The position numbers were made by a program, and so were the translations under genes. The notes beneath the pieces are model-generated. The model was given only the letters and a program-made list of their open reading frames with translations. It did not search any database and was not told the DNA's origin. A stretch of 41,465 nucleotides of DNA from Myxococcales bacterium (GTDB taxonomy: Bacteria > Myxococcota_A > Polyangia > JAAYKL01), in assembly GCA_012522445.1 (NCBI GenBank), contig JAAYKL010000018.1:1-41465 (forward strand), written 5' to 3'. Of the stretch, positions 592 to 9,019 are shown one piece after another. Within the stretch, counting starts at the first letter, position 1, and every line of letters starts with the position of its first letter.

Positions 592-1311
592 ATGGCCCAC
601 CGCATTTCCATACACGGCGTTTTGCTAGCCCTGCTGCTCTGCGCCCATCCACTGCACGCCGACGACGCCGAGCCGACGCTCACAGCGGCCGATGCCCAAG
701 ACGAAACCAGCGAAGCCGACGAAACCAGCGAAGCCGACGAAACCAGCGAAGCCGACGAAACCAGCGAAGCCGAGCAACGAATGCCCCGCTCTCTGTTTTT
801 GCTGACCTACACGATGGCCAATGCGCTGGGCACCGACTACATCCCGAGCTTCAGCCCCAAGGGCATCTCCTTCGGCTACCGCTTCCACCTCACACCGCGG
901 TTCGCCATCGGCCTCCTCTTTTCGTGGCAGGCCTTTGACACCAAGCACGTCACCACACAAAGCTACGCTGACGACACCATGACGATTCGCGGCACACAAC
1001 TGCGCAGCCGCACCGTGATGCCCCTGGTGGCCACCGCACATTACAATTTCAAAATCCACAAAGAGCGCGTCCTCTTTTTTGTGGGCCTGGAGACCGGCGC
1101 TTACCACGTCGCGTCTACCGAGGATTATCCCTGGGTTTATTTTTCGGACAGCCAATGGCACTGGGGCTTTGCGCCCGAGATCGGCATGCGGCTCGCCCGC
1201 GTCAAAATTCCCCTTTACCTCAGCATTAAATACACCCTCATGGTTCCCAATTCCGAACAAGGCACGCAATCCATGTTGGGCTATCACATCGGATTGTCGT
1301 GGGCCCGTTGA
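592..1311 (+). CDS. Outer-membrane beta-barrel-like protein with ETSEAD repeats
   Basis: A 239-residue exported protein of unknown specific role. Residues 1-23 form a signal peptide (positive start, leucine-rich core, likely cleavage after LHA). Four copies of the hexapeptide DETSEA follow (about residues 37-60), giving an acidic linker. The rest alternates polar and hydrophobic residues with many aromatics, as in small outer-membrane beta-barrels, and ends in a strand-like YHIGLSWAR. The start is the ATG at 592 with GGAG eight bases upstream. An upstream in-frame TTG at 541 would add residues unlike a signal peptide and was rejected. The TPR gene follows after 34 bp in the same direction. 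The barrel call rests on composition and pattern, not on a recognised family. Confidence 0.75.
   Translation: MAHRISIHGVLLALLLCAHPLHADDAEPTLTAADAQDETSEADETSEADETSEADETSEAEQRMPRSLFLLTYTMANALGTDYIPSFSPKGISFGYRFHLTPRFAIGLLFSWQAFDTKHVTTQSYADDTMTIRGTQLRSRTVMPLVATAHYNFKIHKERVLFFVGLETGAYHVASTEDYPWVYFSDSQWHWGFAPEIGMRLARVKIPLYLSIKYTLMVPNSEQGTQSMLGYHIGLSWAR
700..771 (+). repeat. 18-bp coding tandem repeat (4 copies)
   Basis: Four identical 18-bp units (GACGAAACCAGCGAAGCC) encode DETSEA. Unit length is a multiple of three, so slippage would change linker length without breaking the frame. Confidence 0.95.
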
Positions 1312-3777: not shown

Positions 3778-4233
<456 letters not shown>

Positions 4234-4348
4234 AGCAGTCTCTCTTTCCGTCGGCGCACGCATGCTGCCGCAACGCCAATGCTGCAAAGCAGGCATTGAA
4301 CCAATGTTAGCCCGGTTCGACGCGTGGTGTCAGTTTTTTCTTAGCGCA

Positions 4349-6427
4349 TCAAAAAAGAGAGGTTTGCACGCCGCCCGACGCGGGACCGCCACCTTTTTTT
4401 CCGCTGTTGGCCTTGTCATCTGTTGCGGGCGGTGACGTGGGCGAAGAGGGTTTCGGTGCCGCTGTGGGATCGGGCTTGGGGTCGGGGTCGGGGTCTGGAT
4501 CGGGCTTGGGCTCTGGCTTGGTGTCGCGCAGGCGCTTCATCCGCACGACGGACTTGGCGCTCAACCGGGCGCCGCGTGCCTGTGGCCCCACCATCTCAAT
4601 GTCGCCCAAATTGACTTCGATTTCGTTGATGCGCTGCCGCTTGCTGGGGACAAAGGTCAACCGCAGCACGTCGTCAACGTCGCCCGGCAACAAGTAGTCG
4701 AGGGAGCCCGCCTTGTCTTTGATGAGCTCGTACTCCCGGTCTTTGATGAACTTGTGGATGTGTACTTTCTTGGCAAAGGCGACGCGGTCTTTGTTGCGGT
4801 ACACCACCGTAAACACGGCGCCATTTTCGATGTCAAAGGCGTCCCAATACAGCACCTTGCCCGGGATGAGCATCTTCTCGGCGGGACCCACAATGCGGTA
4901 GGAGCCGTCCTTGCTGACAAAGAGCACGCGGTCGTACTCGCTCATGGTGATGACGTAGTGCGAGTTTTTCACTTCGCTGCCGAAGAAGCCCGTCTCCTCG
5001 TCGTAGCCCACGCGGATGTTTTGGCGCGCCACGGTCCTGCGGTCCACCGACTCGAAGACCTCGATGCGCGACATGCGCGGATACTGGGCACCATATTTGT
5101 CGATGAGCCCCTGCAAGTAGGCGATGGTGGTCTGCGTGAGCGCCTTGAGTTTGCGCTGCACGTCTTTGAGAGACGCCAACACTTCATCGAGTTGGCGGCG
5201 GTTGCGGCCGATGTCGTAGCGAGAGATGCGGCGGATGCGCAGCTCCAACAGGCGCTCCACGTCTTCGTCGACCATGGGGCGCACGAAGCGCTTTTCAAAT
5301 GGCTTCATGCCCTCATAAATTTCCATGACCACGCGCGCTTCGGTCTTGGCCTCTTCAATGCGCTTGTAGACACGCTCTTCGATAAAGATTTGCTCCAGCG
5401 TCAGCCAGTGCTGCTTGTCGAAGAGCTTGCGCTGCTGGAGCTCGAGTTCGGCGCAGATTTGATCGCGCAGCCGGTCGGTTAAATAGCGCAGGGTTTCGCT
5501 GACGCCGAGCTCCGCGGGATGTCCGTCGCGGATGGCGACGATGTTCGACGAGATGGAGACCTCGCAGTCGGTGTAGGCATACAACTGCGGGATGAGCTCG
5601 TCGCTGTGCACGCCCCGGGGCAGGTTGATTTCGATCTCGACGTGATCGGTGGTGTAATCGTTGATGGTGCCAACCTTGAGCTTTCCCTTTTGGGCCGCGT
5701 TTTCAATGGAGGCGATCACGCTCTCGGTGGTGGTGGAGAAAGGCACCTCGCGGATGATGACGCGCTTGTCGCCCTCTGCCTCAATCCGCGCGCGCACTTT
5801 GACCTTGCCGCGCCCGTCGTCGTACTCGGAGACATCGACGATGCCGCCCGTGGGGAAGTCGGGAAACACCTGCGCCGGCTTGTAGTTGAGGATGTCGATT
5901 TGCGCCTGGAGCAGCTCCGTGAAGTTGTGGGGCAAAATTTTGGTGGCCATGCCCACCGCGATGCCCTCGACCCCCAGCAACAGCAGCACCGGCAGCTTCA
6001 CGGGCAAAAACACCGGCTCCTTTTTGCGGCCATCGTAGCTGTCGCGAAACTCGGTGAGCTCTTTGTTGAAGAGTGTTTCGCGGGCCAGCTCGGTCAGCCG
6101 GCACTCGATGTAGCGCGCCGCCGCCGCCGCGTGCCCCGTGATGATGTTGCCGAAGTTTCCCTGCTTCTCGATGAAGTACTCTTTGTTGGCCAGCACCACC
6201 AAGGCATCGCCGATGGAGGCGTCGCCGTGGGGGTGGAGCTTCATCGTTTCGCCGATGATGTTGGCGACTTTGTGAAACTTGCCGTCGTCGGTTTCGAAGA
6301 GGGTTTGCAGGATGCGGCGCTGCACCGGCTTGCAACCGTCGCGGACGTCGGGGATGGCGCGGTCCACAATGACGTAGCTCGCATATTCGAGAAAGTTTCG
6401 TTCCATCAAGGGATCGAGCGTTGACAT
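4349..6427 (-). CDS. parC: DNA topoisomerase IV subunit A (ParC)
   Basis: The DNA cleaving and rejoining subunit of a type IIA topoisomerase that decatenates and relaxes DNA together with ParE. The 692 residues contain the winged-helix cleavage core: VQRRIL (35-40), HPHGDASIGD (65-74) and the catalytic tyrosine Tyr106 in AARYIECR. The tower/coiled-coil region follows, then a short, divergent C-terminal domain. No GyrA box was seen, which favours ParC over GyrA. The equivalent of E. coli GyrA Ser83 is alanine (Ala70), while the Asp87 equivalent is kept (Asp74). The last roughly 50 residues are a Pro/Asp/Lys-rich disordered tail ending in QTSLF, which resembles a beta-clamp-binding motif. It follows parE by 24 bp in one operon. 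Confidence 0.9.
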   Translation of the reverse strand: MSTLDPLMERNFLEYASYVIVDRAIPDVRDGCKPVQRRILQTLFETDDGKFHKVANIIGETMKLHPHGDASIGDALVVLANKEYFIEKQGNFGNIITGHAAAAARYIECRLTELARETLFNKELTEFRDSYDGRKKEPVFLPVKLPVLLLLGVEGIAVGMATKILPHNFTELLQAQIDILNYKPAQVFPDFPTGGIVDVSEYDDGRGKVKVRARIEAEGDKRVIIREVPFSTTTESVIASIENAAQKGKLKVGTINDYTTDHVEIEINLPRGVHSDELIPQLYAYTDCEVSISSNIVAIRDGHPAELGVSETLRYLTDRLRDQICAELELQQRKLFDKQHWLTLEQIFIEERVYKRIEEAKTEARVVMEIYEGMKPFEKRFVRPMVDEDVERLLELRIRRISRYDIGRNRRQLDEVLASLKDVQRKLKALTQTTIAYLQGLIDKYGAQYPRMSRIEVFESVDRRTVARQNIRVGYDEETGFFGSEVKNSHYVITMSEYDRVLFVSKDGSYRIVGPAEKMLIPGKVLYWDAFDIENGAVFTVVYRNKDRVAFAKKVHIHKFIKDREYELIKDKAGSLDYLLPGDVDDVLRLTFVPSKRQRINEIEVNLGDIEMVGPQARGARLSAKSVVRMKRLRDTKPEPKPDPDPDPDPKPDPTAAPKPSSPTSPPATDDKANSGKKGGGPASGGVQTSLF

Positions 6428-6451: not shown

Positions 6452-8281
6452 TCAGGCCAAGTCCGCAATCAGCCTGTCCACGATGAACTGTTTGCGTTCC
6501 GGCGTGTTTTTGCCCATGAAGAAATCCAAGGTTTTGGTGATGTGGCTCATCGACTTTACCGTGACCGGCACGAGGCGCATGTCCCCTCCGATGAAGTGCG
6601 AAAACTCTTTGGGGCTGATCTCGCCCAGGCCCTTGAAGCGCGTGATCTCGGGCTTGGCGATTTTCTTGGCCGCCGCGTCCCGCTCTTTTTCGCTGTAGCA
6701 GTAGTGGGTCTCCTGCTTGTTGCGCACGCGAAACAGGGGCGTCTCCAGAATGTATACGTGTCCCTTGAGCACCAGCTCGTCGAAGTAGCGCAAGAAGAAC
6801 GTGAGCAGCAGGTTGCGGATGTGCATGCCGTCCACGTCGGCGTCGGTGGCGATCACGACCTTGTTGTAGCGCAGGCCTTCAATGCCGTCCTCGATGCCCA
6901 AGGCGCGCATGATGTTGTACAGCTCTTCGTTTTTGTAGATGGCGTCGCGCTTGAGGCCGTGGCAGTTGAGGGGTTTGCCCTTCAGCGAGAAGATGGCCTG
7001 GGTGTAGACATCGCGCGACTGCACCATGGCGCCGCCCGCCGAATCGCCCTCGGTGAGGAAGATGAGGGTGTCTTCGCGGCGATCGAGTTTTTTGCTCTCG
7101 GGCGAGGCGTCGTTAAAATGCACCTTGCTGTCGATGAGCTTGGGGATGCGGATGGCCACCTTTTTGGCGCGCTCGCGGGCCTCCCGCTTGATGGAGGAGA
7201 GCTCCTTGCGCACGCGCTCGTTTTGCCGGATTTTTTCGAGCAGCTTTTCGGCATCCTGGGGGTTTTTGTGCAGCCACATCTCGACCTGCTCTTTGACCAC
7301 CTGCAGCACCCAAGGGCGCACGTCCGTGGAGCCGAGCTTGTTCTTCGTTTGGCTCTCGAAGACCGGGTCTTGTACCTTGACCGCCACGGCGCCCACCAAG
7401 CCGTCGCGCACATCCTCTCCGGCGAAATTTCTCTTGGCGAACTCGTTGATGCCCTTGAGCACGCCCTCGCGAAAGGCGCTCTGGTGCGTGCCGCCGTCGC
7501 TGGTGTACTGGCCGTTGACAAAGCTGAAGTAATTTTCGCCGTAGTTGTGCGTGTGGGTAAACGAAAACGAAATGTGCGTATTGGTGTAATCGACGCACTC
7601 GTACACCGTGGGCTCTTTGTCGATTTCCTCTTCCAGCAGATCGCGCAGGCCGCGTTTGCTCAAAAACGTTTGGCCGTTGTAAACGAGCGAGAGCCCGGAG
7701 TTTAAGTAGGCGTAGTAGCGCAATCGGTGGTCGATGAACTCCTCGCGCCACGCGTACTCGCCAAAGATGTCGACATCCGGCGTAAAGCGCACGAAGGTGC
7801 CGTCGCGCTCCGTGGTTTTTCCCGTCTCTTCATTTTGCAGCAACCCCTTGCCAAATGTGGCGCGGCGAAATTTCCCCCCGCGGTAGGCCACCACCTCGAA
7901 GTCGCTCGACAGGGCGTTCACGGCCTTGGTGCCCACGCCGTTTAGGCCCACCGAAAATTGAAACACGTCGTCGTTGTACTTGGCGCCGGTGTTGATTTCG
8001 CTCACGCATTCGATGAGTTTGCCCAAGGGGATGCCGCGGCCGTAGTCGCGCACCGTCACGGTGTTGTCGCGGCGCGTCACCTCGATGCGCTTGCCGTTGC
8101 CCATAATGAACTCGTCGATGCTGTTGTCGATGACCTCTTTCAGCATGACGTAAATGCCGTCTGCGGGATTGCTGCCCGTGCCAATGCGACCGATGTACAT
8201 GCCCGTACGCAGGCGAATGTGCTGCAGGGCATCCAGGGTTTTCACCGACTTTTCGTCGTATACCACTTCTTTTTTTGTCAT
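6452..8281 (-). CDS. parE: DNA topoisomerase IV subunit B (ParE)
   Basis: The ATPase subunit of topoisomerase IV, 609 residues, close to the size of short ParE/GyrB proteins without the large GyrB insert. The GHKL ATP site is clear: EVIDNSIDEF near 48, DYGRGIP (Mg/ATP motif) and VGLNGVGTKAVNALS (ATP lid). The C-terminal TOPRIM domain has LTEGDSAGGA and TDADVDGMHIRN, and FKGLGEISPKEF follows. The start is the ATG at 8281 with AAGGAA (8286-8291) five bases upstream; a much longer upstream reading has no support. It is the first gene of a parE-parC operon and is transcribed away from the cobalamin adenosyltransferase gene across a 153-bp gap. Confidence 0.92.
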   Translation of the reverse strand: MTKKEVVYDEKSVKTLDALQHIRLRTGMYIGRIGTGSNPADGIYVMLKEVIDNSIDEFIMGNGKRIEVTRRDNTVTVRDYGRGIPLGKLIECVSEINTGAKYNDDVFQFSVGLNGVGTKAVNALSSDFEVVAYRGGKFRRATFGKGLLQNEETGKTTERDGTFVRFTPDVDIFGEYAWREEFIDHRLRYYAYLNSGLSLVYNGQTFLSKRGLRDLLEEEIDKEPTVYECVDYTNTHISFSFTHTHNYGENYFSFVNGQYTSDGGTHQSAFREGVLKGINEFAKRNFAGEDVRDGLVGAVAVKVQDPVFESQTKNKLGSTDVRPWVLQVVKEQVEMWLHKNPQDAEKLLEKIRQNERVRKELSSIKREARERAKKVAIRIPKLIDSKVHFNDASPESKKLDRREDTLIFLTEGDSAGGAMVQSRDVYTQAIFSLKGKPLNCHGLKRDAIYKNEELYNIMRALGIEDGIEGLRYNKVVIATDADVDGMHIRNLLLTFFLRYFDELVLKGHVYILETPLFRVRNKQETHYCYSEKERDAAAKKIAKPEITRFKGLGEISPKEFSHFIGGDMRLVPVTVKSMSHITKTLDFFMGKNTPERKQFIVDRLIADLA

Positions 8282-8375
8282 ATATTTCCTTAGAGAAATC
8301 CGCTGAACAAATGAACCTCTACGCGCTAGATGCCTACCACCAACGCCCGTCTTTATCAATGCGCTGTTCGAACTT

Positions 8376-8391
8376 GCGCTTTCCAAAGCGC
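8376..8391. promoter_or_regulatory. 16-bp inverted repeat in a divergent promoter gap
   Basis: GCGCTTT-CC-AAAGCGC is a perfect inverted repeat with 7-bp arms. It lies between the divergent parE and cobalamin adenosyltransferase starts and overlaps a weak promoter-like pair (TTGCGC, 16 bp, TATCTT). It looks like an operator for a dimeric regulator, which is not identifiable here. Confidence 0.35.
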
Positions 8392-8434
8392 TGCCTATCT
8401 TGGGCAAGTGGGTGGCGAAAGGGTTACGAACACA

Positions 8435-9019
8435 ATGGTTTACACACGCACTGGAGACACCGGGCACACCCGATTGGCCAATGGCACAACGGTGGACAAG
8501 CATTCGATTCGCGTGGAAGCCTACGGCGCCATCGACGAGGCCATCGCCAGCCTGGGACAGGCCCGCGCCATCTGCGCCATTCCCCGTCTGCAACAAATTC
8601 TGTGCTTTTTGAGCCAGCGCTATTTCAACGGCGCCGCTGTCATCGCGAACCCGGCCGAAAACCAAGACATCGCCATTGCACCGCGAGACATCGCCATCGT
8701 CGAACGGTACATCGACCAAATTTCGCCCTTGCTGCCGCCCCTCGCAGGTTTCATTTTGCCCGGCAGCACCCCGTTAAACGCGGCGCTGCACATGGCGCGC
8801 ACCATCACCCGCCGCGCCGAGCGCCGCCTGTGGGAGCTCGCCTCCGTTGAATTGATCGATGCCCCGGTGCTCAAATTCTTCAACCGCGCCTCAGACCTGC
8901 TCTTTGTCAGCGCCCGCTACGCCGATCACCTGGTCAACCAACCCGATCACCTGTGGGACAAACACTGGGAGCCCAGCCCGCCCAACGCCTCAGGCACCTC
9001 CAACGCCGCGGGTACCTAG
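8435..9019 (+). CDS. ATP:cob(I)alamin adenosyltransferase, PduO type
   Basis: This enzyme transfers the adenosyl group of ATP to reduced cobalamin, making coenzyme B12 in the cytoplasm. The 194 residues follow the PduO-type pattern: N-terminal YTRTGDTGHTRLANG (phosphate binding), RVEAYGAIDEAIASLG, then FILPGSTPLNAALHMARTITRRAERR and KFFNRASDLLFVSARY, which match the conserved ARTVxRRAER and LNRLSDxLFxxAR blocks. Family length is about 180-190. The ATG at 8435 begins exactly where the family begins; the ribosome site is weak. The last 16 residues are a Pro/Ala/Ser-rich tail. No other cobalamin gene is in the window, so it may serve salvage. Its stop shares a CTAG with the mfd stop. Confidence 0.9.
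   Translation: MVYTRTGDTGHTRLANGTTVDKHSIRVEAYGAIDEAIASLGQARAICAIPRLQQILCFLSQRYFNGAAVIANPAENQDIAIAPRDIAIVERYIDQISPLLPPLAGFILPGSTPLNAALHMARTITRRAERRLWELASVELIDAPVLKFFNRASDLLFVSARYADHLVNQPDHLWDKHWEPSPPNASGTSNAAGT

Follow-up and report, generated by a model that had tools for sequence, protein, structure and literature searches.

In the Myxococcales bacterium analysed here, the A subunit of topoisomerase IV (ParC) ends in the pentapeptide QTSLF, which very probably acts as a beta-clamp-binding motif, carried on a flexible tether that would hold topoisomerase IV to the sliding clamp DnaN. The gene lies on contig JAAYKL010000018.1, of which a stretch of 41,465 nucleotides (the window) was analysed. 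A sequence-only reading of the window had called QTSLF a beta-clamp-binding-like motif, and this is supported by its conservation in 13 of 13 orthologs of the family and in 50 of 59 of the phylum, by an identical QTSLF in the DNA polymerase III alpha subunit of the same genome, and by a DnaN that keeps its pocket segments. A hook conserved to this extent suggests that the untangling of DNA may be tied directly to the copying machinery in many Myxococcota.

The parC locus and the C-terminal tail

The parC gene (4349..6427, minus strand; positions are those of the window) encodes, by ORF translation and profile matches, a topoisomerase IV subunit A of the PRK09631 type with 692 amino acids, and parE, encoding subunit B (6452..8719, minus strand; PF00204, Toprim and HATPase_c), lies directly upstream. 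ParC matches PF00521 with an E-value of 3e-100 and the NCBIfam model NF007209 (PRK09631) with 840.9 bits, the cut-off being 644, while the best solved-structure match of its model is 9a68, an integrative model of ParC–ParE, with gyrases next. The catalytic tyrosine is presumably the one within the segment AAARYIE, and no GyrA box was seen in the 692 residues. One further homolog is present in the genome, a GyrA on another contig (G000:C58) with the GyrA box QHRGGKG and the C-terminus EPEEENG, which is without an end of the Q-x-x-L-F type. The profile matches, the adjoining parE and the separate GyrA with its box confirm the naming of the two genes as ParC and ParE. The listed parE ORF opens at an early TTG and shows homology only from about residue 148, the gyrB/parE models matching from residues 148–154, and the true start is probably near 8281. 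The source assembly comprises 3.1 Mb in 143 contigs and is 88% complete; its named close relatives are Deltaproteobacteria MAGs, which NCBI places in Myxococcota.

Short repeats occur at other places in the window. A lipoprotein-like ORF (3778–4296, minus strand) has a long (Thr-Asp)n tail for which near-perfect short repeats code, a protein predicted to be secreted or in the outer membrane (ORF 541–1311) has four ETSEAD-type repeats in its early part (700–780, plus strand), and an intergenic unit of ~60 bases is repeated twice near the window start (~125–255).

Translation of the parC ORF bears out the sequence-only reading that the protein ends in QTSLF and a stop: the C-terminus reads ...GKKGGGPASGGVQTSLF, or in a longer extract ...KKGGGPASGGVQTSLF, followed by the TGA stop codon (4349..4351, minus strand), with the motif at residues 688–692 (4352..4366, minus strand). 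The AlphaFold2 model, built on an alignment of 22 relatives, folds confidently to about residue 634 and is unstructured over residues 635–692 (~58 residues), with pLDDT below 50 over 635–653 and 655–692 and block means of 33–45 from residue 641. These values and the composition also fit the description of the tail as disordered and rich in Pro, Asp and Lys; the linker, which includes the motif and is additionally rich in Gly (residues ~635–692; 4352..4525, minus strand), is delimited by pLDDT and by divergence among relatives. Since the model is unstructured over this stretch, the tail is predicted to be a flexible linker that presents the pentapeptide at the open terminus. Among relatives having a tail, the linker is 27–76 residues long and divergent in sequence, and the linkers before the motif in the family orthologs allow no confident alignment. 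An internal QRKLF in ParC, 361 residues before the end, likewise has the form Q-x-x-L-F and was rejected as a motif, not being kept in relatives. A PCNA-type PIP-box (Qxx[ILM]xx[FY][FY]) is ruled out for the tail, which ends in QTSLF-stop.

Conservation across Myxococcota

The GTDB family of the window was sampled with 14 genomes, of which 13 have a ParC ortholog. All 13 orthologs carry Q-x-[ST]-L-F, and in 12 of them it forms the exact C-terminal end. The family motifs are QTSLF (five genomes including the source), QRTLF (two), QRSLF, QTTLF, QFSLF, QISLF, QITLF and, in genome G006 (locus L011), QYSLFSDE with three residues after the motif. The end proposed as a clamp motif is thus kept throughout the close relatives, and, among the other families of the phylum in which this type of ParC occurs, most have it as well. 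In the remaining family genome (G005, 96% complete) a PRK09631-type ParC was not found, only a weaker GyrA-like match, and among the conventional ParC/GyrA homologs examined from related families there was no such end.

The phylum sample comprises 379 genomes, mostly fragmented assemblies, and this type of ParC is present in 51 of them. Two loci were excluded from the tail count, L153 (G286), with an unreadable C-terminus, and L159, cut by a contig end. A C-terminal Q-x-x-L-[FL] was found in 50 of the 59 readable orthologs. The ends are QGDLF, QGRLL, QGKLL, QGELL, QPELF, QAELF, QGSLF and QRDLF (the last in L161 of G228) in family f36, QTALF, QTSLF and QGALF in f44, QSSLF and QTSLF in f47, and QQQLL in f32. 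Among 49 counted ends the Gln and the Leu are invariant, the last residue is Phe in 38 and Leu in 11, and position 3 favours Ser, Asp, Thr or Glu. Such fixed residues beside a freely changing linker are the mark of a putative short linear motif under selection. Shuffling of the 40 C-terminal residues in each of 58 orthologs from the phylum predicts 0.011 ends of the form Q..L[FL] against 49 seen, a ratio between related sequences that is not to be read as a probability; the fiftieth end, QRDLF of L161, comes in addition to this set.

The nine exceptions among the 59 are the QYSLFSDE end, seven tail-less ParCs, and one long basic tail without the motif (L158). The tail-less proteins, from families f48, f27 and f10, extend just 10–16 residues past the last conserved segment; with no tail present, this clade manages without the motif, which is a point against the tether. 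The ParC of L158 (G368) has a long Lys/Arg-rich tail, and the tree groups it with f36, while its genome is filed under f48. A tree of the ParC cores with 81 rows, from a quick search that left several weak deep forks, requires a minimum of five changes of state, with two lone carriers placed apart from the main group.

Clamp-binding motifs of the same genomes

For a short motif the best yardstick is what the organism itself uses elsewhere. The DNA polymerase III alpha subunit of the source genome (L208, G000:C114) contains an identical QTSLF, within RDRLSGQTSLFDALAQ. In phmmer searches against the PDB, its segment SGQTSLFDALAQ aligns with GQFDLFG of 7pu7 and, in the E. coli structures 5fku, 5fkv and 5fkw, with GQLDLFGVLAEE of the alpha chain. 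In alpha this segment is established as the clamp-binding motif, which the deposited E. coli complex reportedly has in a form made stronger than the native QADMF. The alpha subunits of relatives have QTSLF in five genomes, QISLF in G006 and QIDFF in G010; those of other families have QTTLF (f44), QESLF (f36 and f47) and QGSLF (f47), and those of other phyla are alike (QGSLF, QLSLF, QISLF, QNSLF, QMSLF). The Y-family polymerase of the source genome has QMELF near its C-terminus, the corresponding enzymes of relatives having QLSLF, QQELF, QEDLF or QLDLF at that place. The DnaN of the source genome (L239) aligns with solved clamps and keeps TDGHRL, FPSYDQVIP (FPxYxxVxP) and a terminal MPMR, segments which presumably line the binding pocket. 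With the same motif types in alpha and in Y-family polymerases, and with the pocket segments of DnaN kept, the ParC tails follow the clamp grammar of the clade.

The published consensus is Q-L-x-L-F, mostly C-terminal (PMC4549789; PMC9690074). ParC has Thr at position 2, where Leu is preferred, though not obligatory, so that the affinity of its tail for the clamp may be modest. Thr stands at this position in alpha, too, both in the source genome and in five relatives. The earlier count of four fitting positions out of five holds for the E. coli-type consensus QL[SD]LF, and with the alpha subunit of this very genome as reference all five positions fit. Like the pentapeptides QL[SD]LF and QLxLF of Pol III alpha, Y-family polymerases, mismatch-repair proteins and transposases, the ParC end has Gln at position 1, Leu at 4 and Phe at 5, together with a small or acidic residue at 3, a place at the extreme C-terminus behind a flexible linker, and the very pentapeptide of its own alpha subunit. 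ParC is the sole convincing gene of its genome ending in Q-x-x-L-F, the other matches to Q-x-x-L-F-stop falling in short or antisense-looking frames, so that a wider set of C-terminal clamp clients is not derivable from this genome.

A conserved terminus might instead bind another cytosolic partner, such as an SMC complex or an FtsK-like translocase, the likeness to clamp motifs being convergence. E. coli ParC is recruited by MukB via its C-terminal domain (PMC3950513; PMC5061553), a case alike in that the C-terminal region of ParC serves recruitment and different in that a folded domain meets the MukB hinge there, as against a linear motif for DnaN here. Conserved ends of another kind in Lentisphaeria ParCs, for example DEDTPFFLE, likewise indicate that such tails can evolve other docking peptides. 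The invariant Gln at −5, Leu at −2 and final Phe or Leu are, however, what the clamp grammar asks for, and all five residues are found again, unchanged, at the clamp site of the alpha subunit in this genome, which makes another partner an unlikely explanation. It is very unlikely that the hydrophobic end is a degradation signal setting the level of ParC: short C-terminal peptides on disordered linkers can generally serve as degrons, but this would leave the invariant Gln and the preference for Ser, Asp, Thr or Glu at position 3 unexplained, and L011 has three residues past its motif. Least probable of all, and largely refuted by the conservation data, is a neutral relic of chance or shared ancestry, for although the orthologs are related, so that their tails are not independent, and a single Q-x-x-L-F ending per genome is not improbable, Gln, Leu and Phe/Leu stay where linkers of 27–76 residues have changed past alignment, the 49 ends seen far exceed the 0.011 expected, and the core tree needs few changes of state, loss of the motif usually being loss of the tail.

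Proposed role, known systems and occurrence outside the phylum

If the terminus binds the clamp, QTSLF would dock in the hydrophobic pocket of DnaN that Pol III alpha occupies via its own QTSLF, and topoisomerase IV, as an A2B2 enzyme with two ParC tails, would offer two such peptides. It could thereby stay close to clamps; the most plausible ones are those that remain on freshly copied DNA after the fork has passed. Precatenanes form in that region and need unlinking, and with the remaining DnaN as a dock the tail would increase the amount of decatenase on the spot. Binding itself is very probable, while the place and timing of action and better decatenation behind the fork are more tentative. 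The broader proposal, that topoisomerase IV of Myxococcota is a regular clamp client, recruited and concentrated on precatenanes by clamps behind the fork through a docking site common with the polymerase's identical peptide, is one to which we give even chances.

Vertebrate DNA topoisomerase II alpha was reportedly found to bind PCNA by Niimi et al. 2001 (cited in PMC9674351). The enzyme is also listed among PCNA partners in a table of the review PMC9690074. This case is alike in that a type IIA topoisomerase is joined to a sliding clamp via its C-terminal region, and different in that the clamp is PCNA and not DnaN and that no sequence is in common with the bacterial tail; the two links must have evolved separately. 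The carrier described here, a type IIA topoisomerase, differs from the known bacterial clamp partners, the consulted part of the bacterial column of the same table containing no topoisomerase. In Caulobacter, ParC is likewise a topoisomerase IV A subunit at the replisome and moves with it, without demonstrated contact (Wang and Shapiro 2004, cited in PMC4470285); the consulted part of PMC4470285 attributes this to FtsK and mentions no clamp motif. For E. coli and B. subtilis, topoisomerase IV is reported to be spread largely evenly across the nucleoid (PMC12448304), which would count against a tether, though the ParCs of these species are of another type than PRK09631. Two recent reviews of replication in E. 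coli and B. subtilis (one of them PMC12448304) describe topoisomerase IV, in the parts consulted, without a clamp link.

The clamp motif as such is thus known, as are its consensus and its mostly C-terminal position, and what appears to be new is the motif on an essential client, topoisomerase IV. The open-access literature yielded no report of a ParC–DnaN motif; subscription literature lay mostly outside the search, so priority is not proven. On how topoisomerase IV comes to the linked sister duplexes that the fork leaves behind, the Caulobacter account (PMC4470285) and that for E. coli and B. subtilis (PMC12448304) differ, and a conserved linear clamp motif, if true, would explain this for one phylum in simple molecular terms. 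An essential enzyme and drug target would also join the bacterial clamp clients, as a bacterial parallel to vertebrate topoisomerase II alpha and PCNA.

Outside the phylum, 80 named loci and Lentisphaeria genomes were sampled, SAR324 and Planctomycetota being represented only by named loci. Most of the 80 loci are without a Q-x-x-L-F type ending. The reading that every PRK09631-type ParC has the motif was rejected, since it is absent from the majority of loci in Spirochaetes, Verrucomicrobia and Acidobacteria, and likewise in Planctomycetota. The likely carriers stand isolated: L074 (Planctomycetota, GQQSLF-stop), L097 (SAR324, NQLSLLPVK) and L255 (Lentisphaeria, QPTLF). The ends of L074 and L097 are possibly independent gains of the clamp motif. 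These isolated clamp-like ends, together with the other conserved ends of many Lentisphaeria ParCs (QPELGF, DEDTPFFLE), suggest that the tails of PRK09631-type ParCs may repeatedly become docking peptides. If the similar ends in SAR324 (QLSLL), Planctomycetota (QQSLF) and Lentisphaeria (QPTLF, perhaps QPELGF) are true clamp motifs, the link would have evolved several times.

Two further conserved types of ParC end were observed. The loci L040, L046, L063, L064, L100, L105, L253, L265 and L268 end in QP[EDT][LF]GF, which is like the hexapeptide clamp form QLxLxL, and the Lentisphaeria ParCs L254, L256, L257, L260, L262, L266, L267 and L269–L271 have a terminal ~(I)DE[DSN]xPFFLE after long disordered linkers.
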